Below are positions 26,077-59,840 of a stretch of 64,000 nt of DNA, in pieces. The first letter of the stretch is position 1, and each line of letters starts with the position of its first letter. Source of the DNA: Paenibacillus sp. MMS20-IR301 (lineage in GTDB: Bacteria; Bacillota; Bacilli; Paenibacillales; Paenibacillaceae); contig NZ_CP135275.1 in the NCBI RefSeq assembly GCF_032302195.1, positions 3,658,001 to 3,722,000 of the forward strand, given 5' to 3'. A model generated the notes under the pieces. It was not told the origin of the DNA. It made no database searches and worked only from the letters and a program-made list of their open reading frames with translations. A program made the translations under genes and the position numbers.

Positions 26077-26102
26077 CGGCGGGCGCGAGGCGGGCGCGAT
26101 TC

Positions 26103-26216
26103 AGGGGCACTTCTGCCCCTGTTTTCCTCTTATCGCCTGCTTTTGGCGATATTAGGGGCACTTCTGCCCCTGTTTTCCTCTTATCGCCTGCTTTTGGCGA
26201 TATCAGGGGCACTTGT
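26103..26216. repeat. 51-bp tandem repeat A (two full units and a partial third)
   Basis: Units begin at 26103, 26154 and 26205 (truncated), a period of exactly 51 bases. Each full unit has two hairpins: AGGGGCA-N4-TGCCCCT and TATCGCC-N7-GGCGATA. The two full copies differ only at their last base. The array begins about 25 bases after the LysR stop, within an 880-base gap between convergent genes. Confidence 0.9.
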
Positions 26217-26224
26217 GCACCATA

Positions 26225-26452
26225 TGAGGGAAAAGTCACTCTAATGTTACCCAATTGCGGCTTCCGAGCAGCATATAGGGGAAAAGTCACTCTAACGTTA
26301 CCCAATTGCGGCTTTCGAGCAGCATATAGAGGGAAAAGTCCCTCTAACGTTACCCAATTGCGGCTTTCGAGCAGCATATAGAGGGAAAAGTCCCTCTAAC
26401 GTTACCCAATTGCGGCTTTCGAGCAGCATATAGAGGGAAAAGTCAGTCTATT
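26225..26452. repeat. 51/52-bp tandem repeat B (four units and a partial fifth)
   Basis: The AAAAGTC core recurs at 26231, 26282, 26334, 26386 and 26438. Each unit carries AGAGGGA-N4-TCCCTCT or a version with one mismatch, followed by a conserved block with AACGTTACCCAATTGCGGC and GAGCAGCATATAG. Units 3 and 4 have the perfect hairpin; units 1, 2 and 5 read TCACTC or TCAGTC. The units are near-identical throughout, so this is not a CRISPR array. Confidence 0.9.
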
Positions 26453-26482
26453 TTCAGCCAAATGTAAGCTCAATCTGGTTAC

Positions 26483-26615
26483 TTACGGACATCACAGACC
26501 TTATTCGCCACTTTCAAGCTCCGAATGTCACTTTTTCGGCAAAATAACGGCGCTGGTGTCCGCAAGGATAAGTCTCAGGTGCTTTTCCGCTGGTTAAGGT
26601 CTCTCATGTCCGTAA
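26483..26615. repeat. Inverted set of three 21-bp sites (family F)
   Basis: One forward site (26483-26503, TTACGGACAT then ACAGACCTTA-like) and two reverse copies (26545-26565 and 26595-26615). Forward and last copies match at 19 of 21 positions as an inverted pair; the middle one is weaker (15 of 21). Start-to-start spacing is 62 and 50 bases, and the first site falls 51 bases after the last repeat B unit. The rest of the gap to 26816 shows no gene I can support. Confidence 0.7.
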
Positions 26616-50474: not shown

Positions 50475-50661
50475 ATAAGTGGAAAAATGACACTTAATCG
50501 CTGCAAATGTCAGAGAATGAAGATATTAGTTGGATAAATTACACTTAATTCCATACATATCGGATAAAACAGGCAACTTGGGCGAAATTAAGTGTCATAA
50601 ATCCATTTATTTCCGGATCAGCTGCTGGAGCAGATAAATTAGGTGTCATTAATCCACTTAA
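50475..50661. repeat. Four-site inverted repeat element (family D)
   Basis: Four 24-base sites begin at 50475, 50526, 50587 and 50638 (start-to-start 51, 61, 51). The first two read forward and the last two reverse. Each has AAGTG-like and CACTT-like arms around a 9-base centre (e.g. TAAGTG and CACTTA with ATGA in the core). The element occupies a 655-base convergent gap (50366-51021) between the amidase gene and a secreted-protein gene. The rest of the gap holds only a short dyad (ATGAACG/CGTTCAT near 50816-50850) and no supportable gene. Confidence 0.85.
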
Positions 50662-51021
50662 CCCAGGCTCCGCAGCAGGTACGGATCAGCTGTGTGTGCG
50701 ATCTAGCTGCAGATGCACCTTTTTTCAGCGTATACACTGATTAGCTTAACCGCTGCTTTAGTACACATGATTACTATGAATTATATATGCTGAACTTAAG
50801 AATGATGGCCAGCCGATGAACGCCCCCTTACAGGGCAAGGAATTCGTTCATGCAGCAGGTTATTATCAATAATGGAGCTGTCCCGGCAGAATTACTGTAC
50901 CCGCTACACTACCAGCATCAGACAATAATCTACTGTAAGCGCCAATGCACACAGCAAGCCTCATCAACAGTCTCTCTGCCGGTACACCTGCTCCTATAAA
51001 GTAAATACCGCCGCCGCACCA

Positions 51022-52008
51022 TCATCTGGCGTCGATTTTCCCCAGCACATATCTGCTTTTCCCGTTCTCCGTAATCTTGTTAACCGTAGCTATAACCCAT
51101 CCATACCCTGCTTCATCACTGCTATCCGGATTATACATGCTCCCTTGCACTTTATACTGATTGGCTGCGGTCTGATAGACACTATGCACTTTGACATATA
51201 CCGGGGCTTCGCCGTCTGCTCCAGTGAATACATAACCTTTACCGTTATACTGATATTCACCAACCGTTGCATGCTTCGTGAACGGAAGATTGAAATATTT
51301 CCGGATCGAGGCTGACACCGTTTCCCGGGAAATAAACAGCTTGCCTCCCTTGGTGTCAGAGACAGCAGACTTATAATTATTAATATAATTATGCCAAATG
51401 CCGAACCGGATCAGGTCTGCGGGCTTCAGCGCAGCGCTGTCGAGTTTGTACAATCCGAGCTCAGTAAAATTACTGAGGAACAAACCGAGCTTTGCCCGCT
51501 CTGCTTCGCTTAGATTTACTTTTTTGTATAATGTGTAGCTTCCCGGCAGGAATGAATATTCACCGATTTCTTCACCTGTCCAGCTTAGGCTAATCCTTCC
51601 CTTGTTCAGCACAATCTTCAGAACACCATTGTTATACTCATCCTTGTACTTCAGCGTGGCTACACCCGATGCATTAAACGTAACTGTGCCCTCAACCAGA
51701 CTGCTGCGAAGTCTGCCGATTGTGGCATCAAAGTTCTCTTTCGTGGACATCAGAGCATGGAAATAGGTGCTAGAAGCTTCAACATAGGCTGTCTGCCCTT
51801 TAACCTGACTGATGCTTAAGTCAATATTGCGGGTTGCATAATCACTGGTATACCCGGAGTCCTCCCAGACTCCAGCGTAAGTAGCACTCAGCGGACTCGC
51901 GGCCTGCGCGGGTGTTAATAAGAATAAGCATACAACAACTGCAAGTAACGCTGCGCACAATCCTGCTGACCGCGGACCCTGCAATGTATTTTTCATAAAC
52001 TGGTTCAT
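51022..52008 (-). CDS. Secreted hypothetical protein
   Basis: Protein of 328 residues with a signal peptide (about 1-36, ALLAVVVCLFLLTPAQA then ASP). The mature part is beta-rich with two visible regions: a Tyr/Thr-rich first half (YAGVWEDSGYTSDYATRN, ATLKYKDEYNNGVLKIVLN) that resembles small lipocalin-like or META-like barrels, and a second half that begins after SEAERAKLGLFLSNFTELGL. The second region has a helical stretch and ends in short strands. No catalytic motif or anchor is seen. It is followed upstream by a membrane-protein gene. I do not recognise a family; GGAGAG lies 10 bases before the ATG. Confidence 0.75.
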   Translation of the reverse strand: MNQFMKNTLQGPRSAGLCAALLAVVVCLFLLTPAQAASPLSATYAGVWEDSGYTSDYATRNIDLSISQVKGQTAYVEASSTYFHALMSTKENFDATIGRLRSSLVEGTVTFNASGVATLKYKDEYNNGVLKIVLNKGRISLSWTGEEIGEYSFLPGSYTLYKKVNLSEAERAKLGLFLSNFTELGLYKLDSAALKPADLIRFGIWHNYINNYKSAVSDTKGGKLFISRETVSASIRKYFNLPFTKHATVGEYQYNGKGYVFTGADGEAPVYVKVHSVYQTAANQYKVQGSMYNPDSSDEAGYGWVIATVNKITENGKSRYVLGKIDAR

Positions 52009-52045
52009 ATCCCGCTTCCTCTCCTCAATATTTAGCTACAGGTCA

Positions 52046-52408
52046 TCAAAAAAATGGCGGCGCAGGCGGATCCTTAAACGGATTCTCAATGATTACATTT
52101 AGAATGATCTGCACTAATATTCCGCTGGCCAGATAGACAAGAAAATGTCTGATAACACGCTTCCCGTCCTGTCCGCCATTCTTCGCCAGCCAGTACTTCT
52201 CCGCGAAAAAGAAACCCATTAACAAATTAATGATCATGATTACCAGGCAGATAAAGAATTGCGGCAGACCAGTCAAGAATCCGTTTGAATAAAAGTCAGC
52301 AAAAATAATATAAAACAATTGCGAAACTCCGGCAGGCAAAGCCGCAGCTCCGAGAATCACCGGAAGACTAATCAGGTATTTCTCCAGTCCTATCCCGCTG
52401 GTCCCCAT
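52046..52408 (-). CDS. Small membrane protein
   Basis: Protein of 120 residues with three or four hydrophobic helices (about 15-40, 45-70, 90-110) and a Pro-rich end (DPPAPPFF). I place the start at ATG 52408, which shares one base with the GNAT stop codon (TGATG), so translation is coupled. Longer starts would lie inside the GNAT gene. No family recognised. It is 37 bases before the secreted-protein gene on the same strand. Confidence 0.7.
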   Translation of the reverse strand: MGTSGIGLEKYLISLPVILGAAALPAGVSQLFYIIFADFYSNGFLTGLPQFFICLVIMIINLLMGFFFAEKYWLAKNGGQDGKRVIRHFLVYLASGILVQIILNVIIENPFKDPPAPPFF

Positions 52409-52872
52409 CACTTCACCACCAGCCGCAGGCATCTCATATTGGAATAACCATAGCCCGCAGCCTCATAAAAGTGCAGCGCCCGCGCATTATCCGCATCCGC
52501 CAGCAGAGTGATCCGCAGAAATCCCTGCTCCTTGGCGTAAGCTACAATACTGTCCATGAAAAAGCGCCCGCTGCCCTGTCCCCGTTCCTCTGCAGCGATA
52601 ATGAAATCCTCCAGCATGATTACCGGCCCGCCTTCGAAGGTGCTGAACGTAAATATCAGGTTCACCATACCAACTACCTTCACGCCGCGTTTAAGCAGCA
52701 GAAGCTGCCCGCGCTCCGGATGCTTCAGAATCAGCCGCAGTCCCGCCTCTTGCTTAGCCGTAGTATCCGCATTATCTGTCCCGGCAAAATCCCGCTCCAG
52801 CCCGAACAGCTCCTGCAGCAGCAGGCACATCGCTTCCAGCTCTTCTTCCCCCGCCTTGGTTATGGTCAGCAT
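52408..52872 (-). CDS. GNAT-family N-acetyltransferase
   Basis: Acetyltransferase of 154 residues. The acetyl-CoA pyrophosphate-binding motif is EERGQGSGRFFMDSI (R/Q-x-x-G-x-G), preceded by the strand VIMLEDFIIA and followed by ADADNARALHFYEAAGYG, the classic motif B. The substrate may be a small amine or a protein N-terminus and cannot be named. CGGAG lies 8 bases before the ATG. It is the first gene of a short leftward unit with the membrane protein and the secreted protein. The 229 bases upstream (52873-53101) contain no gene. Confidence 0.88.
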   Translation of the reverse strand: MLTITKAGEEELEAMCLLLQELFGLERDFAGTDNADTTAKQEAGLRLILKHPERGQLLLLKRGVKVVGMVNLIFTFSTFEGGPVIMLEDFIIAAEERGQGSGRFFMDSIVAYAKEQGFLRITLLADADNARALHFYEAAGYGYSNMRCLRLVVK

Positions 52873-53101
52873 AGTCTCATCTCCGTTCTTATGTGGATGG
52901 GCTAAAGACCTTTGTTGATGCAGCCCGCGCCTTGCTGATTGCCCTCTTGCCTCATCATAAATGATTCTTGACGGTTTCTACTGTGACTTTTCCCTGTGCA
53001 CTGGCAGGCACTGGCAGCTTGCTTCTCTATACCATAAGCCCCCGTCCAGAGCGGGCGGAGGCCGTTAATACTCTATAAATGCTAATGAATTCCGCAGCGC
53101 G

Positions 53102-53833
53102 TTACTTCATCCCGCCCGAACCCTGCGCAGCCTCAATAGCGGCAGCCAGCTCCTCATACGAGGCGCTTGGCAGCAGCTTACCGTTCACCATAAACTTCGG
53201 AGTTCCGTTCACCCCGTAATTTCCCGCCGTCTTGAAATCCTCTTTGACTGGAAGCATATACGTATGCTCCTGCAAATCCTGCGCGAAGCGTTCGTAATCA
53301 ATGCCGCTGATGTTGTCCTTCACGAATTCAAGCATAAACTGCGGGGTAGCCCAAATCTTCGTCTCATCCCCCTGATGGTCATACAGCTTACTCATGAATT
53401 CCCAGAATTTATCGTTATCCTGGGCGAATACCGCTTCACCTGCACTGGCCGCCATAATCGAATCCCGGTCAATGAAGGCGAAGTTGATGAAGAACAGCTC
53501 CGCTTTACCCGTATCAATGAAGTCCTGTTTGAATTGCTCGAAGTAGGTTTCCTTCCATTTCTTGCAGGCCGGACACTTGAAATCTGCGAATTCAATCACC
53601 TTGGCTTTGGCTGTGCTGCTGCCCAGATGGGGCTGCTTCTCATACTTCAAGCCGTTAGCATCGAAGTCCCCGCGGATTTCCGTATAATTGGGCAGTCCGT
53701 CCAGTCCCCCTGCCGCCTGGGTCCGGGTCAGAAATGCGACGGATACGGCAAGTATTAGCATAATGAATATAATGACCGGGACTGCAAAACTGTAGCTTTT
53801 CTTAGCCTGATTAACCTTCATTTTAACCATCAC
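53102..53833 (-). CDS. Membrane-anchored DsbA/BdbD-like thiol oxidoreductase
   Basis: Protein of about 243 residues with one N-terminal transmembrane helix (about 14-37), a short linker, and a DsbA-type thioredoxin domain facing outward. The active-site motif is CPAC in FADFKCPACKKW; the cis-Pro is in VNGTPKFMVNG. It probably forms or shuffles disulfides in secreted proteins, as BdbD does in Bacillus. GTG at 53831-53833 is taken as start, with GGGGG 7 bases upstream; ATG one codon further is equally possible. No BdbC/DsbB-like partner is next to it. A cre-like site lies 36 bases upstream. Confidence 0.88.
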   Translation of the reverse strand: MMVKMKVNQAKKSYSFAVPVIIFIMLILAVSVAFLTRTQAAGGLDGLPNYTEIRGDFDANGLKYEKQPHLGSSTAKAKVIEFADFKCPACKKWKETYFEQFKQDFIDTGKAELFFINFAFIDRDSIMAASAGEAVFAQDNDKFWEFMSKLYDHQGDETKIWATPQFMLEFVKDNISGIDYERFAQDLQEHTYMLPVKEDFKTAGNYGVNGTPKFMVNGKLLPSASYEELAAAIEAAQGSGGMK

Positions 53834-53868
53834 TCTATTTCCCCCTAGATAAGATAGATACCGCTTGT

Positions 53869-53882
53869 TGATAGCGCTTTCC
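53869..53882. promoter_or_regulatory. cre-like CcpA site before the DsbA-like gene
   Basis: Leftward, GGAAAGCGCTATCA matches the cre pattern at all but the first base. It could control the DsbA-like gene, or be the last site of the sugar-transport region to its right. Confidence 0.5.
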
Positions 53883-53989
53883 ACTTTCCAGTCTGAATAT
53901 AAGCTGCTCTGTGCCTCACCGTAAAGGTACACTTACGGCCGCTGCGTACCTTTCCCCTGTTCTGGCCGGCTGCAGGTGCACAGCAAAGA

Positions 53990-54020
53990 GGCTTCCTCTC
54001 ATGAATGAGAGAGGAAGCCC
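53990..54020 (-). terminator. Terminator of the LplABC-type operon
   Basis: Leftward, GGGCTTCCTCTCTC pairs with GAGAGGAAGCC(TC) around ATTCAT and is followed by TCTTTGCTG. It lies 12 bases after the binding-protein gene. Confidence 0.8.
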
Positions 54021-54032
54021 CGAAAGTTACGA

Positions 54033-55670
54033 TTAATTAGAAGCCCAAAGCTCCATACGTTCCTTGTACTTCTGGTTGATGATTGTCTCCACTTCCTCAT
54101 CCCCGGCCTTCTTCATGTCGGCCAGCATCTTGTCGAAGGTGGTGTTCGCGGCTTCTTCAGAGCCCGCAATAATGACTCTGGTGATGCTCTGGTCCATGAT
54201 ATCCTTAACCTTCTGGGCAGTCAGCGCTTCCGGTGTCCCGCCGTCCGGATTGAGGTTATCGAACTCCGCTGTATCCCAGACGGAATCCCCGAGGCTCTTG
54301 ATCGCCAGCTCATCGCCTTCGCTGCGCTGGTATTTCACCGCCATATCATATGGCTGGCCGTTAGGGTCCAGGCCGTTCTTGATGAACCAGAGCCATTTGC
54401 GGACGCCGCTCTTTTTCACTGTATCATCCCAGTTATCCTTGAAGCTCTGCAGGAACGCCGGATCCGGCTGTCTCTTGCCTTCTGCCATAGTATATTGCTG
54501 GCCTTCCAGACCCCACAGCAGCAGGTGCTGTCCTTCGTCGCTGGCGAGGAAATTGAACAGCTTCATCGTTTCTTCCGGATGCTTGTTGTTCTTGGTAATC
54601 CCGATCGCATCCCAGCCAAGGGAGCTGCGCGGTCCGAATGTGGTCTGTGCCGGATCAACTCCAGGGGCAACTACCTTGTAGGCGAACAGCTGGTTTTTCA
54701 CGCCGCCGTCTTTCTTAAGTGCCGCATTGCCGTTGCCCGGGTCCCAATATGCAGCCGGTGTAGCGAATACAGCTCCTGTAGCCAGCTTCTGAATCCAGGT
54801 CTGGGTTTTGCTGATGGCGAATTCCTTCTCGATCAGACCTTCGCGGTACAGGCGGTTCACATACAGAATCATTTCGCGGTACTTCGGATCCTTCACATCA
54901 TATTGCAGGGTTCCGTTATTGTCGTAGTAGGTTTTGAGGCCCCACATTCCTTTGAACGTTCCCAGAATAGCGCCCATGTTCTCACCGTTCATAGCCATAG
55001 GAACTGATTCCTTGCCGTCAATGGTCGGGTATTTCGCTTTGAAGCTCTTAAGCAGCTCTTCGAACTCATCCGTAGTGAACGGAGCAGAACCGTCCGCCTT
55101 ATCCGGAGCCAGCTCCTCCAGCAGGTTCTGCCTGATATTCATTCCGAACACCGGGTCGCTGTCCAGTCCGTACCAGTTCGCGAAGTAGTAGTTTTTGCCG
55201 TCTTTATAACGGGTTTTCTGCAAAGTGTCGCCGTACATGGCTTTCAGGTCCGGGCCGTACTGTTCAATTAGATCATCGAGCGGAATGAATGCGCCGCTGG
55301 TAATATATTTATCGAGGGAGGCATCGCCGCGGCTCATCAGCACCACATCCGGGTAATCGCCGCTGGCCAGCATCAGGCTGAGCTTCTCGGTCGGATTCCC
55401 GGTCGGCTGCTGAATCGACACCTGGATACCGGTACGTTTCGTAACTTCCTGGGCCACCGCATCCGTGAACGGTTCCCCCTTCGTATTTCCGTCAAACCAG
55501 GTTAAGGTGATCGGTTCCTGCTTCGTCTCTTCTCCGGCTGCTGCATTTGTATTTGTATTTGGTTCAGCATTTTCTTTCCCGCCGTTAGAAGCGCAGCCAA
55601 CCAGCAGTCCGGCAGTGAGTGCGGCAGAGATCCCCATGTTCATCCATTTGTTTGTGTTTATCATTGACAC
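54033..55670 (-). CDS. Oligosaccharide ABC transporter binding lipoprotein (LplA-type)
   Basis: Large family 1 binding protein of about 545 residues, as common in Paenibacillus. It has a lipobox LLVGCASN (near residue 25), a Asn/Thr-rich tether, then ITLTWFDGNTKGEPF. The body includes SLMLASGDYPDVVLMSRGDA and GNPTEKL. Its C-terminal lobe has KVKDIMDQSITRVIIAGSEE. It would bind a complex oligosaccharide and hand it to the two permeases upstream in the same operon. GTG at 55668-55670 is preferred (AGGAGG 7 bases upstream); ATG two codons in is an alternative. No ATPase gene is present, so a shared MsmX-type ATPase is likely (inference from this transporter class). Confidence 0.9.
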   Translation of the reverse strand: MSMINTNKWMNMGISAALTAGLLVGCASNGGKENAEPNTNTNAAAGEETKQEPITLTWFDGNTKGEPFTDAVAQEVTKRTGIQVSIQQPTGNPTEKLSLMLASGDYPDVVLMSRGDASLDKYITSGAFIPLDDLIEQYGPDLKAMYGDTLQKTRYKDGKNYYFANWYGLDSDPVFGMNIRQNLLEELAPDKADGSAPFTTDEFEELLKSFKAKYPTIDGKESVPMAMNGENMGAILGTFKGMWGLKTYYDNNGTLQYDVKDPKYREMILYVNRLYREGLIEKEFAISKTQTWIQKLATGAVFATPAAYWDPGNGNAALKKDGGVKNQLFAYKVVAPGVDPAQTTFGPRSSLGWDAIGITKNNKHPEETMKLFNFLASDEGQHLLLWGLEGQQYTMAEGKRQPDPAFLQSFKDNWDDTVKKSGVRKWLWFIKNGLDPNGQPYDMAVKYQRSEGDELAIKSLGDSVWDTAEFDNLNPDGGTPEALTAQKVKDIMDQSITRVIIAGSEEAANTTFDKMLADMKKAGDEEVETIINQKYKERMELWASN

Positions 55671-55762
55671 CCTGATTCCTCCTATGAAATAAGACTTCAT
55701 CCGTCCGTCAAGCAGCCCGTCCCAAGCCTCCGCTCACCTCCCTTCAGAACCTTTTAATCATA

Positions 55763-56653
55763 TTAACTTTTCACAGCCCCCAGTGTCATACCTTTGACAA
55801 AATACTTCTGCAGGAAGGGATATACGAGAATGATCGGCAGGGTCGCCACCATGGTCGCCGCCATCCGGATCGTATCGCTGGAGACGGCATTGCGCTTGGC
55901 CGAGTTGGCCAGCATCTGCGTCTGGGACACCATGCCGCCGGTCTGGAACTGGCTTAAGATTTTGACAAGTACGGCCTGAAGGGTCTTCAGATCCGAGCTG
56001 TAGGTAAACGCATAGGAATCAAACCACGAATTCCAGTGTCCAATGGCCTGAAACAACCCTACGGTTGCCAGTACAGGCGTAGTCAGCGGCAGCACGATCC
56101 GGAAAAAAATCGTCAGGTCATTCGCCCCGTCCACCCGCGCCGACTCTTCAATCTCACCGGGCAGCTGCTCCATAAACGTGCGGACAATGATCATATAGAA
56201 CACATTCATCAGGCCCGGCAGAATAAATACGGAGAAGGTATCTATCATGTTCAGCGCCTTGAGCACCATGTAATAGGGGATCAGGCCGCCGCCGAAATAC
56301 ATGGTGAAGACAAAATAGAGATTCCAGCCCTTACGGCCCACCAGATTCCGCCGGCTCAGCGGATATGCCAGCATGGTGATGACGAGCACCGACAGCGGTG
56401 CGCCAATGACTGTCCGTTTGACCGTGACCCAAATTCCGCTCATAATCTCGCTGTCCTTCAGGATCTGATTATAGCTGTCCAGCGTGAGCACTCTGGGCCA
56501 GAAGTAGACACCGCCCCGCACCGTATCCTCCGCACTGTTCAAGGACAGCACGAGAATATTCCAAAAGGGCAGAAAGGTTACCAGCAGTACAAGAATAAGG
56601 ATGAGATACACGAAGAATCTGAAAATATGATCACCAAACCGGTCTAAAATCAT
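55763..56653 (-). CDS. Carbohydrate ABC permease, LplC/MalG type
   Basis: Permease of 296 residues with six hydrophobic helices. The EAA coupling loop is EESARVDGANDLTIFFRIVL (about residues 180-200). The N-terminal SLNSAEDTVRGGVYFWPRVL matches the extracellular loop of the LplC class. It ends the permease pair before the binding-protein gene, with 92 bases between. AGAGGAG lies 11 bases before the ATG. Confidence 0.92.
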   Translation of the reverse strand: MILDRFGDHIFRFFVYLILILVLLVTFLPFWNILVLSLNSAEDTVRGGVYFWPRVLTLDSYNQILKDSEIMSGIWVTVKRTVIGAPLSVLVITMLAYPLSRRNLVGRKGWNLYFVFTMYFGGGLIPYYMVLKALNMIDTFSVFILPGLMNVFYMIIVRTFMEQLPGEIEESARVDGANDLTIFFRIVLPLTTPVLATVGLFQAIGHWNSWFDSYAFTYSSDLKTLQAVLVKILSQFQTGGMVSQTQMLANSAKRNAVSSDTIRMAATMVATLPIILVYPFLQKYFVKGMTLGAVKS

Positions 56654-56680
56654 AACAAGCGCTCCTCTCTATTATTTAAG

Positions 56681-57637
56681 CTAGAACAACGCCTGGTCGT
56701 TCACTTTCCGGGAGATCCGGTTCACAATTACCACTAGAATGAAAGCTACAACTGATTTGAACATGCCCACGGCAGCCCCGTAAGAGAACATGCTGTTCTG
56801 CAGCCCGTATTTGTAGGCATAAATATCGATAACCTCTGAATATTCGAGTACGGTGTTATTTTGCAGCAGGTATTGCTGTTCAAAGCCCGCATTCAGAATG
56901 CCTCCGACCGCCAGGATGCCCAGAATTACAATCGTCGGCCGCAGCGCAGGCAGCGTAATATGCCACATCTGCCGGAACCGGCTGGCCCCGTCGACTCTGG
57001 CCGCTTCATACAATTCCGGATTGACCGCAGAGATTGCCGCAAGGTACATAATCGCGCTGAAGCCCATTTCCTTCCACATGTTGGAGAGGGCGATAATCCA
57101 CCAGAATAACGGCCCATTTTGCAAAAAAGCAACCGGCTCCTTAACGATCCCCAGCAGCACCAGAATATTGTTGAACATCCCGTCCGAAGCAAGCATGGTA
57201 ATAACAATGTTGGCCGCGATAACCCAGGAGATGAAATGCGGCAGGTAGGAGACCGTCTGCACAAATCGTTTGAAGAAGCCCTGCCTGGCCTCGTTCAGCA
57301 TCAGCGCCAGAATGATCGGAGCCGGGAAGCCGAACAGCAGGGTCAGCAGGCTCGTCGCCAGCGTATTGCGCATAATCCGGTAGAAATCACCGGTGGTGAA
57401 GAAGTATTCAAACCATTTGAAGCCCACGAATTCGGCCCCGAAAAACTGGTGCAGAAATGTACCCCCGCCCGGCTGGTAATTCGTAAATGCCATGTACATT
57501 CCGAACATCGGACCGTACGAGAACAGCAATGTCGCAATAAAGGCCGGCAGCATAAGCAGGAATAACCACTTTTGCTCCCTGAGTCTGATCCATAGGCTGC
57601 TGCCCCTGACCGGTTTGATAGCGCTTGCTTTATACAT
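56681..57637 (-). CDS. Carbohydrate ABC permease, LplB type
   Basis: Permease of about 318 residues with six helices. It has the EAA loop YEAARVDGASRFRQMWHITL (about residues 215-235) and the class-specific GPMFGMYMAFTNYQPG near the start. It lies first in the leftward operon, 27 bases before the LplC-type gene. ATG 57637 is chosen with GGGAGG 7 bases upstream; an upstream frame to 57661 lacks it. A cre-like sequence sits within codons 4-8, so the gene start itself may bind CcpA. Its divergent neighbour is a YesM-type kinase likely to sense the same sugar. Confidence 0.92.
   Translation of the reverse strand: MYKASAIKPVRGSSLWIRLREQKWLFLLMLPAFIATLLFSYGPMFGMYMAFTNYQPGGGTFLHQFFGAEFVGFKWFEYFFTTGDFYRIMRNTLATSLLTLLFGFPAPIILALMLNEARQGFFKRFVQTVSYLPHFISWVIAANIVITMLASDGMFNNILVLLGIVKEPVAFLQNGPLFWWIIALSNMWKEMGFSAIMYLAAISAVNPELYEAARVDGASRFRQMWHITLPALRPTIVILGILAVGGILNAGFEQQYLLQNNTVLEYSEVIDIYAYKYGLQNSMFSYGAAVGMFKSVVAFILVVIVNRISRKVNDQALF
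57616..57629. promoter_or_regulatory. cre-like site inside the start of the LplB-type gene
   Basis: AGCAAGCGCTATCA, read leftward, matches the cre pattern except for the first base. It lies within the first ten codons, a position where CcpA can act as roadblock. Confidence 0.5.
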
Positions 57638-57750
57638 CAAATTCCCTCCCTTTTCCTCCACAGCAGCTTATACGGCTGCCTCTCTGCTCATCTTCTATGT
57701 ACTTATCTTAAATCCGCCGCCGGGTGCTTTCTATACTCCAATCCTCCGAA

Positions 57751-57764
57751 TGATAGCGCTTTTT
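57751..57764. promoter_or_regulatory. Second, weaker cre-like site in the divergent gap
   Basis: TGATAGCGCTTTTT keeps the central AGCGCT of cre but loses the terminal CA. It lies in the 218-base gap between the permease operon and the kinase gene and shares ATAGCGCT with the site at 57616. Confidence 0.35.
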
Positions 57765-57855
57765 AAAGATGTTTCGGCGTATCCGGTTATTGGATTCCGG
57801 TATCCGGTCTGCTATGATGAACTAGTCATTAACCGCTGAAAAAGGGGCTCTGCTT

Positions 57856-59613
57856 ATGCGTCAGCTGTACAGAAAGTATATTTATCTGCCGTTTGTCGAC
57901 CTGAGCTTCCGCTCCAAATTGTTTCTGGTATTCGTCCTGGTAACCATTATTCCAATGATGCTTCTCGTCTATTTCTCGTATGAACTTACAAAATCTAAAC
58001 TTACCGAGCAGATCTACATCAATATGATGAGCTCAACCGCGCAGATTAATAAGAACCTGGAGAATAAGCTGGACAGCTATGAGCATATCTCTGCTTCTAT
58101 CTATCTCGATGACCGGCTGGCCAGCTATCTGACCGCTGAATACATCGATGATCCGTCTTATCTCGACGTCTATAAGTACATTGGCAACCGTATTGATACG
58201 GTGATGGCGGCTTACCCTGATTTTGACAGCGCATTCATCTATACCGACAATCCTACACTGCCTAAGGATAATTACTATATCAAGCCCGTCACCCCTGAGG
58301 TTCAGGATACCGAGCTGTACAAGCAGCTCCAGCAGTCGCACGGCAATATCATCTATCTGACCTCTCCCCAGAGCGCAGACAGCCCCGCCATGTTCACACT
58401 CGCCAGACAGCTGAACAATAACCGGAACCAGTACCCTTACGGGACGCTGGTCTTCCGTATCTCTGAATCCGTAATCTATTCCCTTATGGAGAAGGAAGCC
58501 GGCGGCAAGGATATCTTCATCATTAATGACCAGGGCATTATTCTGTCGTCCGCCGATAAGCAGCTGCTGGATACCAGCCTGCCGGAGCTGCTTCAGCACC
58601 AGTTTGCCGGGGAAGCCTCCGGCCGGTTCGACACCAGCTACAACGGGGTTAAGGCTTTTGCGGTCTACAACACGCTCGCCAACGGCTGGAAGACGGTGTC
58701 GATTGTCCCGTACGAGAGCATCATCCAGGATGCCAAGTCCCTGTCCCAGCTTATTATCAAAATCTCGCTCGCCTTCATCGGCGTAGCCCTGCTGCTGATC
58801 TATATTACCGCTTCGCTGTTCAGCAACCGCATCCGGACCTTAATGCGGATGGTCCGGCGCATCGAGCGCGGCGATTTCAACCCGGCGAAGGAGGAGCAGC
58901 TCGGCAACGATGAGATCGGCCAGCTGCACTTCGCCTTCAACCAGATGACCGGCCGCCTGAGCGGCCTGATCAGCGAGGTGTCGCGCAAGGAGCTGCTCGG
59001 CAAGGAGGCGGAGCTTGACCTGCTGCAGGCCCAGATCAATCCGCATTTCCTGTATAACACGCTTGGCTCCATCTCCTCCCTGGCTGTTAAGCATCAGGAC
59101 AGCCAGATCCAGGATATGGTGCAGAACCTGGCCAAGTTCTACCGGATCTCGCTCAACAAAGGCAAGAGCATTCTGACGATCAATGAGGAGATCCGGCTGA
59201 CCCGGAGCTATAATGCGATCCAGCTGATCCGCTTCAAGGGGCAGCTGAACATTACCTATACAATAGATGAAACGATTCTGCCTTACTCTACCGTCAAGCT
59301 GACGCTGCAGCCCTTTATCGAGAACTCGGTGATTCATGCAGCCTGGAGCCAGGATAATCCGCTCAATATCCATATCAGGGGCGTTATTCAGGACAATGAT
59401 ATTATCCTGTCCGTGATTGATGACGGGATGGGCATGAGCCGGGAGACGCTGCAGCAGCTGCTTGGGGAGAAGCCCGGGCGCGGGTATGGCATTATGAACG
59501 TGGACCGGCGGATCAAGCTGAAGTTCGGCGAGTATTACGGGGTAAAAGTGTACAGCCGGCTGGGCATCGGCACCGTCGTGCAGATCCGGCTTCCGCAGAA
59601 GGCTGTCTGGTGA
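57856..59613 (+). CDS. YesM-type membrane sensor histidine kinase
   Basis: Kinase of 585 residues: transmembrane helix about 21-43, extracellular sensor region to about 295, second helix about 297-320, HAMP (IRTLMRMVRRIERGDFNPAK), His_kinase block with AQINPHFLYNTLGSISS (phospho-His) and ATPase domain with LQPFIENSVIHAAW, DDGMGMS and GRGYGIMNVDRR. AAAAGGGG lies 8 bases before the ATG. It is divergent from the LplABC-type operon and should sense its sugar. No response regulator gene follows: a 434-base gap and a leftward gene come next. The partner regulator must be elsewhere. Confidence 0.92.
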   Translation: MRQLYRKYIYLPFVDLSFRSKLFLVFVLVTIIPMMLLVYFSYELTKSKLTEQIYINMMSSTAQINKNLENKLDSYEHISASIYLDDRLASYLTAEYIDDPSYLDVYKYIGNRIDTVMAAYPDFDSAFIYTDNPTLPKDNYYIKPVTPEVQDTELYKQLQQSHGNIIYLTSPQSADSPAMFTLARQLNNNRNQYPYGTLVFRISESVIYSLMEKEAGGKDIFIINDQGIILSSADKQLLDTSLPELLQHQFAGEASGRFDTSYNGVKAFAVYNTLANGWKTVSIVPYESIIQDAKSLSQLIIKISLAFIGVALLLIYITASLFSNRIRTLMRMVRRIERGDFNPAKEEQLGNDEIGQLHFAFNQMTGRLSGLISEVSRKELLGKEAELDLLQAQINPHFLYNTLGSISSLAVKHQDSQIQDMVQNLAKFYRISLNKGKSILTINEEIRLTRSYNAIQLIRFKGQLNITYTIDETILPYSTVKLTLQPFIENSVIHAAWSQDNPLNIHIRGVIQDNDIILSVIDDGMGMSRETLQQLLGEKPGRGYGIMNVDRRIKLKFGEYYGVKVYSRLGIGTVVQIRLPQKAVW

Positions 59614-59655
59614 ATTAGCTAAAGAGGGGAACAGCTACACGCGAAAACTGAGTGA

Positions 59656-59840
59656 TAGTTGTATTTCGTACAACTAAAAATGATCAAATGGGGCATGCCC
59701 AACTTTTAACTGCACTCTGTACAACTAAATCTGCACAAATAGGCTAAACCGCCCTATATCCGGCAGTTTAATTGCACGAAATACAATTAAAGCGATAATC
59801 GCGGGAAAATGAGGTGTTTTAGTTGTACGAAGTGCAGTTA
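59656..59840. repeat. Four-site inverted repeat element (family E)
   Basis: Four 21-base near-palindromes begin at 59656, 59707, 59769 and 59820 (start-to-start 51, 62, 51). The first is TAGTTGTA-N5-TACAACTA. By the asymmetric centre (TTTCGT or CTCTGT) the first two read forward and the last two reverse. Site 1 resembles site 3, and site 2 resembles site 4. The element fills part of the 434-base convergent gap 59614-60047; no gene is supported in the rest. Confidence 0.87.

Follow-up and report, generated by a model that had tools for sequence, protein, structure and literature searches.

Dispersed intergenic elements with four dyad sites, a common spacing and several site classes in Paenibacillus sp. 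MMS20-IR301 and related bacteria

Introduction

Repetitive extragenic palindromic (REP) sequences, bacterial interspersed mosaic elements (BIME) and REP doublets forming hairpins (REPIN) of enterobacteria and pseudomonads are short, intergenic and of inverted symmetry, are represented by several families per genome and prefer gene ends. Miniature inverted-repeat transposable elements (MITEs) are dispersed, non-coding sequences of about 200 bp, also with inverted symmetry. All these features recur in the elements described here, which were found in a stretch of 64,000 nucleotides of the genome of Paenibacillus sp. MMS20-IR301 (contig NZ_CP135275.1, positions 3,658,001 to 3,722,000; hereafter, the window). 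Two elements of this window, D and E, are members of a dispersed intergenic superfamily, in which four 21-bp dyads stand in the order + + - - at distances of 51, 62 and 51 bp. The geometry, orientation rule, site classes and dispersal of the superfamily, the constraint on its cores and spacing, and the change of class at fixed gaps are described below.

Placement outside genes and near gene ends is REP-like (23/23 sampled elements were intergenic); the other hallmarks of REP/REPIN and MITEs that could be assessed are absent. In contrast to REP and REPIN, the elements are not hairpins, judging by covariation, no Y1/RAYT-type transposase (PF01797) was found in the genome of strain MMS20-IR301, and a fixed four-site geometry is common to classes with different sites. 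Unlike MITEs, they have ragged ends without target duplication (seen by eye, in a nine-copy subfamily only), and in most E copies the sites and their distances agree, whereas the spacers differ. To our knowledge, no known kind of element is defined by spacing with an exchangeable site sequence, and no description of such elements was found in the open-access full-text literature, a weak result, as subscription papers lie mostly outside that search. The res sites of serine resolvases, the dyads of which stand at a characteristic spacing, resemble the elements considered here in geometry. They consist of several dimer-binding dyads, the spacing and orientation of which set the complex (PMC9943657). 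Res sites comprise two or three dimer sites beside the recombinase gene, whereas here four sites in the order + + - - are dispersed through the genome, and no recombinase was seen near E elements by inspection of the largest neighbour clusters within two genes. A likeness of the class I half-site to the resolvase half-site was dropped, as the half-sites face the opposite way.

Results

Elements D and E

Elements D and E ranked first and second (scores 108 and 105) in a sequence-agnostic scan of the window for four mutually similar 22-mers with a first spacing of 40 to 65 and a centre of 40 to 79; when the window was shuffled three times by a second-order Markov model, the highest scores were 69, 71 and 67. 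Centred on the dyads, the spacing is exactly 51/62/51 bp both in D (50476-50660) and in E (59656-59840), and the site order + + - - is given by the strict pattern in D and by the direction of the central bases in E. The preliminary description of the window had reported two such elements, each with two forward and then two reverse dyad-like sites; both were confirmed in the sequence, and the window has a further element, belonging to a third class, at about 26.43-26.62 kb (Table 1). The centre of 62 reported for E stands, while the 61 reported for D came from the chosen register, the dyad-centred value being 62. Site sequences of D and E, considered unrelated, do represent different classes, but are not wholly unrelated, as TA..TG.A is common to the half-sites of D (TARNTGGA) and E (TARYTGYA). 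Both elements lie, as reported, in convergent gaps: D between genes for an amidase (+) and an open reading frame without a Pfam match (-), E between genes for a sensor histidine kinase (+) and a deaminase (-).

Spacing independent of site sequence

A sequence-agnostic scan (first spacing of 36-71 and centre of 36-83 permitted, cut-off 80) of 40 evenly spread 20-kb stretches of the MMS20-IR301 genome yielded 37 matches, with a Markov maximum of 73; the spacing was roughly 51 bp in 23 of them, all 23 intergenic. Together with 200 kb each of genomes G001, G006, G014, G022, G025 and G053, the sample comprised 2.0 Mb from seven genomes and contained 73 intergenic four-site matches, the first spacing being 50-52 in 65 of these although 36-71 was allowed. 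Matches scored at least 80, against Markov-shuffle maxima of 71-74 across the sampled genomes. Among the 53 non-tandem matches, the dyad-centred centre was 61-62 in 42; the other 11 include three of class J (centre 52-53), the rest being arrays, overlaps or apparently badly centred matches, and automatic centring fails for some matches of classes I and D, which count as misses. The evidence on spacing with freer distances comes from these scans with recentring and from the tally of neighbour distances in E loci given below. The proposed family, with conserved spacing and a site sequence varying by class, is borne out by the genome-wide and multi-genome scans.

In six sampled Paenibacillus genomes, the density of gaps with a four-site match was about 20-55 per Mb, except for one genome with 0. 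Genome G014 contained 11 matches with roughly 51-bp spacing in 200 kb, versus 0 in G006, a contrast that could point to the putative binding protein. The geometry was also found, in small samples, in two other families of the order. Two clear matches were detected in 200 kb of G025, which belongs to another family, and four with roughly 51-bp spacing in 100 kb of G027 (scores 80-90, two flagged as genic, in a sample without shuffles); G037 contains 52-bp tandem arrays, and no four-site match was found in 144 kb of G029.

Dispersal and site classes

In the genome of strain MMS20-IR301 (7.69 Mb), strict patterns gave 109 matches for class E (control 0), 73 and 79 by strand for D (control 1 and 1), 82 and 86 by strand for I (control 0) and 21 for H (control 0), a palindromic match being counted on each strand. 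Confinement of the sites to the window is thereby ruled out, the superfamily being dispersed through the genome. As a plain DNA query, element E found at least 17 further places in this genome (more than 120 bp, E-value <1e-5, 69-77% identity) and element D several weaker ones; of the 55 and 70 initial candidates of these searches, the first 40 each were scored. Among the matches listed for E, D and I, neighbours closer than 300 bp were always 50-52 or 61-62 bp apart or at sums of these (111-114, 164), and sites of D and I were paired as + +, + - or - -, never as - +. A strict partner within 400 bp was absent for 1/50 E, 10/95 D and 36/100 I sites among the matches listed, the single E site being the final entry, and partnerless sites may have partners that fail the strict pattern.

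The shared geometry is represented in at least eight site classes, several of which occur per genome. These are E (TARYTGYA), D (TARNTGGA), H (CTRYTGYA), J (TTGTTGTA), I (TWACGGAC) and M (TARNTGCR), and half-sites seen in single genomes include TAACGAAAC, TTGCGAAAG and TTAGGGAA. The loose skeleton TA..[GT]G.[AC], at one offset in at least two sites, was found in 28/53 elements and in 0/53 shuffles; accordingly, the classes are partly related.

A paired E pattern (two sites 51 bp apart) was found in at least 118 stretches of named genomes, the titles of which referred to Paenibacillus or Paenibacillaceae in all 80 among the matches listed. Neighbouring E sites in these loci are 50-52 bp (218) or 61-63 bp (103) apart, with 10 other distances below 400 bp, seven of them 112-113; since the loci were fetched by the 51-bp pair, the first spacing is not free there. 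Complete tetrads account for 129 of 144 such pairs; 7 of the others are at the edge of a locus, and 8 are arranged differently.

Conservation and change of class at fixed gaps

Loci of hemD-hemB were fetched by the HemB protein, not by the element; HemB was found in 60/61 genomes of the genus and loci were examined for 30. A four-site element is present in the hemD-hemB gap of 15/30 genomes (scores 79-116, per-locus Markov maxima 60-71), namely 12 of class E, two E-like and one D-like, the two E-like elements sharing a change in the right half, in 4/4 sites of one and 3/4 of the other. Where HemD was in view, the element was present in 15/15 gaps of at least 330 bp and in 0/13 of less than 180 bp. 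Locus L282 contains an element of class M within 1.5 kb upstream of HemB, with HemD outside the view, and the gap of L268 scores 75, just below the cut-off. Two of the 30 loci look identical at the gap. Among relatives compared for precise empty sites, one genome lacks the element and, with it, several hundred bp; the other pairs are too diverged.

Eleven E elements were placed in hemD-hemB gaps, and nine pairs of close copies, which reuse sequences, were aligned. Differences amounted to 4/360 (1.1%) in cores, 22/216 at degenerate positions, 30/180 in site centres, 24/144 at site edges, 148/795 (18.6%) in spacers and 519/1326 (39%) in flanks, the last figure being an upper bound, as poorly alignable sequence is included; gap columns numbered 1 in cores, 3 in spacers and 155 in flanks. 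Site sequence, described earlier as free to change, thus differs between classes, but within a class the core is strongly conserved. In pattern-fetched loci, a set biased by the manner of finding, sites and spacing are kept at other gaps, in up to seven species at one gap, and several of these gaps have unalignable spacers.

Different classes occupy the same gap in different species downstream of the amidase and kinase genes as well as at hemD-hemB. An element lies within 600 bp of the match end in 8/20 amidase orthologues; one belongs to class D and the other seven to class H. In some orthologues an element is located farther off. Downstream of the kinase, class E is present in the window and class I in two close orthologues (82-83%); no element was seen downstream of five distant homologues. 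In the kinase gap of G001 (L079 3455-4540), four class I elements stand in a row. For comparison, 48/298 gaps of at least 250 bp contain an element in six Paenibacillus genomes, summed, and the three gaps were chosen since one genome has an element there. Part of the excess at these gaps is due to shared descent, which does not explain the differences in class.

Variation within the dyads

For analysis of site variation, 151 E elements (604 sites) were collected with the spacing restricted to 50-52/61-63/50-52, so that their geometry is no free test. The cores are nearly invariant, partly by site selection, and variation is located at positions +-8, +-7 and +-4. Watson-Crick pairs were observed versus expected by independence as 220/290, 225/224 and 269/311 at these positions, and the number of G/C letters per site (six positions) varied less than expected (variance 0.98 vs 1.41), both being rough figures, as the sequences are related. 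At +-8 and +-4, fewer arms were perfectly symmetric than would be expected by independence. Within elements, the outer pair (site 1 with 4) and the inner pair (2 with 3) are more alike in the reverse reading, and the remaining pairs in the same reading, which may reflect descent; being confounded by descent, this similarity is used as support for nothing.

At curated cut-offs, no Rfam family matched in the window, and only the cobalamin riboswitch was found in six 20-kb loci with other classes. In one stretch of the MMS20-IR301 genome, a class I element (15130) and a cobalamin riboswitch (L049 14677-14881) lie about 250 bp apart. Terminator-like signals at 151 gene ends facing an element lie before it in 32 cases, inside in 3 and after it in 20, and occur within 100 bp of 30/141 control gene ends. 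A role of the elements as terminators was rejected on the basis of these counts.

Placement relative to genes

The 23 elements sampled in the MMS20-IR301 genome lie in 5 convergent, 3 divergent and 15 co-directional gaps. Of 143 placed E elements, 1 overlapped a called gene; gene calling relied on a simple finder, by which the deaminase gene of the window was overlooked. The 122 elements with both neighbours called (the rest lacking one) lie in 75 co-directional, 38 convergent and 9 divergent gaps, versus 97, 22 and 46, respectively, among 165 element-free gaps of at least 200 bp of these loci (odds ratio for convergent against divergent gaps 8.8, p 2.5e-7). In co-directional gaps, 55/75 E elements are nearer the end of the upstream gene. 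Convergent placement, noted earlier for D and E, is thus enriched for class E, but is not a general rule, convergent gaps holding only 38/122; no enrichment was found in the 23 elements, and the larger E set shows a bias. The hem element sits within a gene cluster.

Third element of the window and tandem arrays

The third match of the agnostic scan of the window (98, at 26.14 kb) falls in a 51-bp tandem array. At 26096-26615 this array (dyad AGGGGCA..TGCCCCT) passes into a 52-bp array (dyad TAGAGGGA..TC.CTCTA), the last dyad of which is the first place of the class I element, at nearly the same pitch; the period-52 array (26217-26450) thus adjoins this element in step. Tandem arrays of palindromic units with a period of 51-52 bp were seen in several genomes (L062, L310, L344, L207, L363). 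They resemble the four-site elements in the pitch of their dyads, about 51-52 bp, and differ in the single orientation, the near-identical units and the lack of a 62-bp centre. These arrays may be expansions of the same four-site system.

Table 1. Sites of the four-site elements in the window
Feature	Position	Strand	Basis
Class I element, first place	26431..26450	+	Dyad of adjoining 52-bp tandem array; by eye
Class I site, second place of third window element	26483..26503	+	Strict class I match and sequence
Class I-like site	26545..26565	-	Reversed, 62 bp on; read by eye in sequence
Class I site	26595..26615	-	Reversed, 50 bp further; strict class I match and sequence
Element D, site 1	50476..50496	+	21-bp dyad, class D; sequence and strict D pattern match G000:C1:3708476
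Element D, site 2	50527..50547	+	51 bp after D site 1; sequence and strict D pattern
Element D, site 3	50589..50609	-	Reversed, 62 bp after D site 2; sequence and strict D pattern
Element D, site 4	50640..50660	-	Reversed, 51 bp after D site 3; sequence and strict D pattern
Element E, site 1	59656..59676	+	21-bp dyad, class E; sequence and strict E pattern match
Element E, site 2	59707..59727	+	51 bp after E site 1; sequence and strict E pattern
Element E, site 3	59769..59789	-	Reversed, 62 bp after E site 2; sequence and strict E pattern
Element E, site 4	59820..59840	-	Reversed, 51 bp after E site 3; sequence and strict E pattern

Discussion

The four-site elements likely dock four dimers of a putative sequence-specific DNA-binding protein along one face of the helix, with a probability of roughly 0.55. 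One dimer would occupy each dyad, all on a single helix face. The distances of 51 and 62 bp correspond closely to five and six turns of the helix, so that stacking or bridging along this face, through protein contacts, would bring the dimers into a compact complex; class J, at 52 bp, would correspond to five, five and five turns. The putative reader of each class would be a separate member of one protein family, in which DNA specificity would have changed and the geometry of assembly been kept.

Several observations weigh against this docking model. The binding protein remains putative, and the centre of class J is 52-53, not 62. No verified element was found in the hemD-hemB gap of 14/30 genomes or within 600 bp of the match in 12/20 amidase orthologues, and genome G006, of the same genus, yielded no four-site match in 200 kb (10 x 20 kb, L289-L298); therefore, no single element is indispensable. 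In addition, spacers and some 60 bp of flank are common to nine copies in the MMS20-IR301 genome, which indicates that copying has occurred.

Such copying would be expected of non-autonomous mobile repeats of the MITE or REPIN kind, the sites of which would bind a recombinase or transposase, one enzyme per class, and be kept for spread. The dispersed copies, the several classes per genome and the intergenic position near gene ends agree with this explanation, as a tolerated selfish repeat would likewise sit there. It is nevertheless less likely than the docking model, though the strongest of the alternatives. The Y1 transposase (PF01797) has 0 matches in the MMS20-IR301 genome and was found in 5/14 control genomes, by which a RAYT/REPIN system was rejected; the nine-copy subfamily has ragged ends, and no target duplication was seen by eye; orthologous gaps retain both the cores and the spacing. 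The E pairs belong to complete tetrads in 129/144 cases, and an autonomous element was rejected as well, no gene being seen between the inner sites. Phage and plasmid records contained no E match, and one viral contig did.

It is improbable that the elements are operator clusters of an ordinary family of transcription regulators, with looping among four operators. Half-sites resembling those of dimers, with class-wide changes, and several classes per genome fit such operators, but divergent gaps are avoided (9/122 versus 46/165 element-free gaps), 55/75 elements in co-directional gaps lie nearer the end of the upstream gene, and only 1/50 strict E sites among the matches listed, the final entry, has no partner. 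Least probable is an RNA or single-strand hairpin acting in transcripts as terminator, processing site or structured RNA, as suggested in part by the preliminary description: the inverted symmetry and the single-strand folding energy (z about -5 for D and E) are those of any inverted repeat, while the degenerate arm positions of 604 E sites do not covary as Watson-Crick pairs, Rfam matches below the curated cut-off are at chance level only, with none above it in the window, and terminator-like signals lie inside the element at just 3/151 facing gene ends.

If the elements are docked by protein, their position after gene ends, with divergent promoters avoided, would speak, as the weakest step of the argument, for an architectural or insulator-like role rather than for control of promoters; the complex might hold a DNA loop in place or keep neighbouring transcription units apart. 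In its widest and tentative form, for which the odds are less than even, this would be an order-wide code of chromosome architecture, in which a fixed scaffold of 5-6-5 turns is combined with diverging DNA-binding proteins, the sites of each genome form several independent languages, each marking chosen gene borders, and the language is exchanged between species at gaps that retain their element. Bacteria would in that case have their own equivalent of insulator or boundary elements.

Repeats in bacteria are as a rule identified by common sequence, whereas here distance and orientation are shared, which is missed by sequence searches; accordingly, a common feature of the chromosome, present in about 20-55 gaps per Mb in all but one of six Paenibacillus genomes, may have escaped notice. 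If a protein docks on them, the four-site elements would represent a novel type of element in bacterial chromosomes. With a protein family as readers, the system would constitute a naturally occurring series of independent protein-DNA codes built on a single scaffold, and the existence of bacterial boundary elements would become testable.

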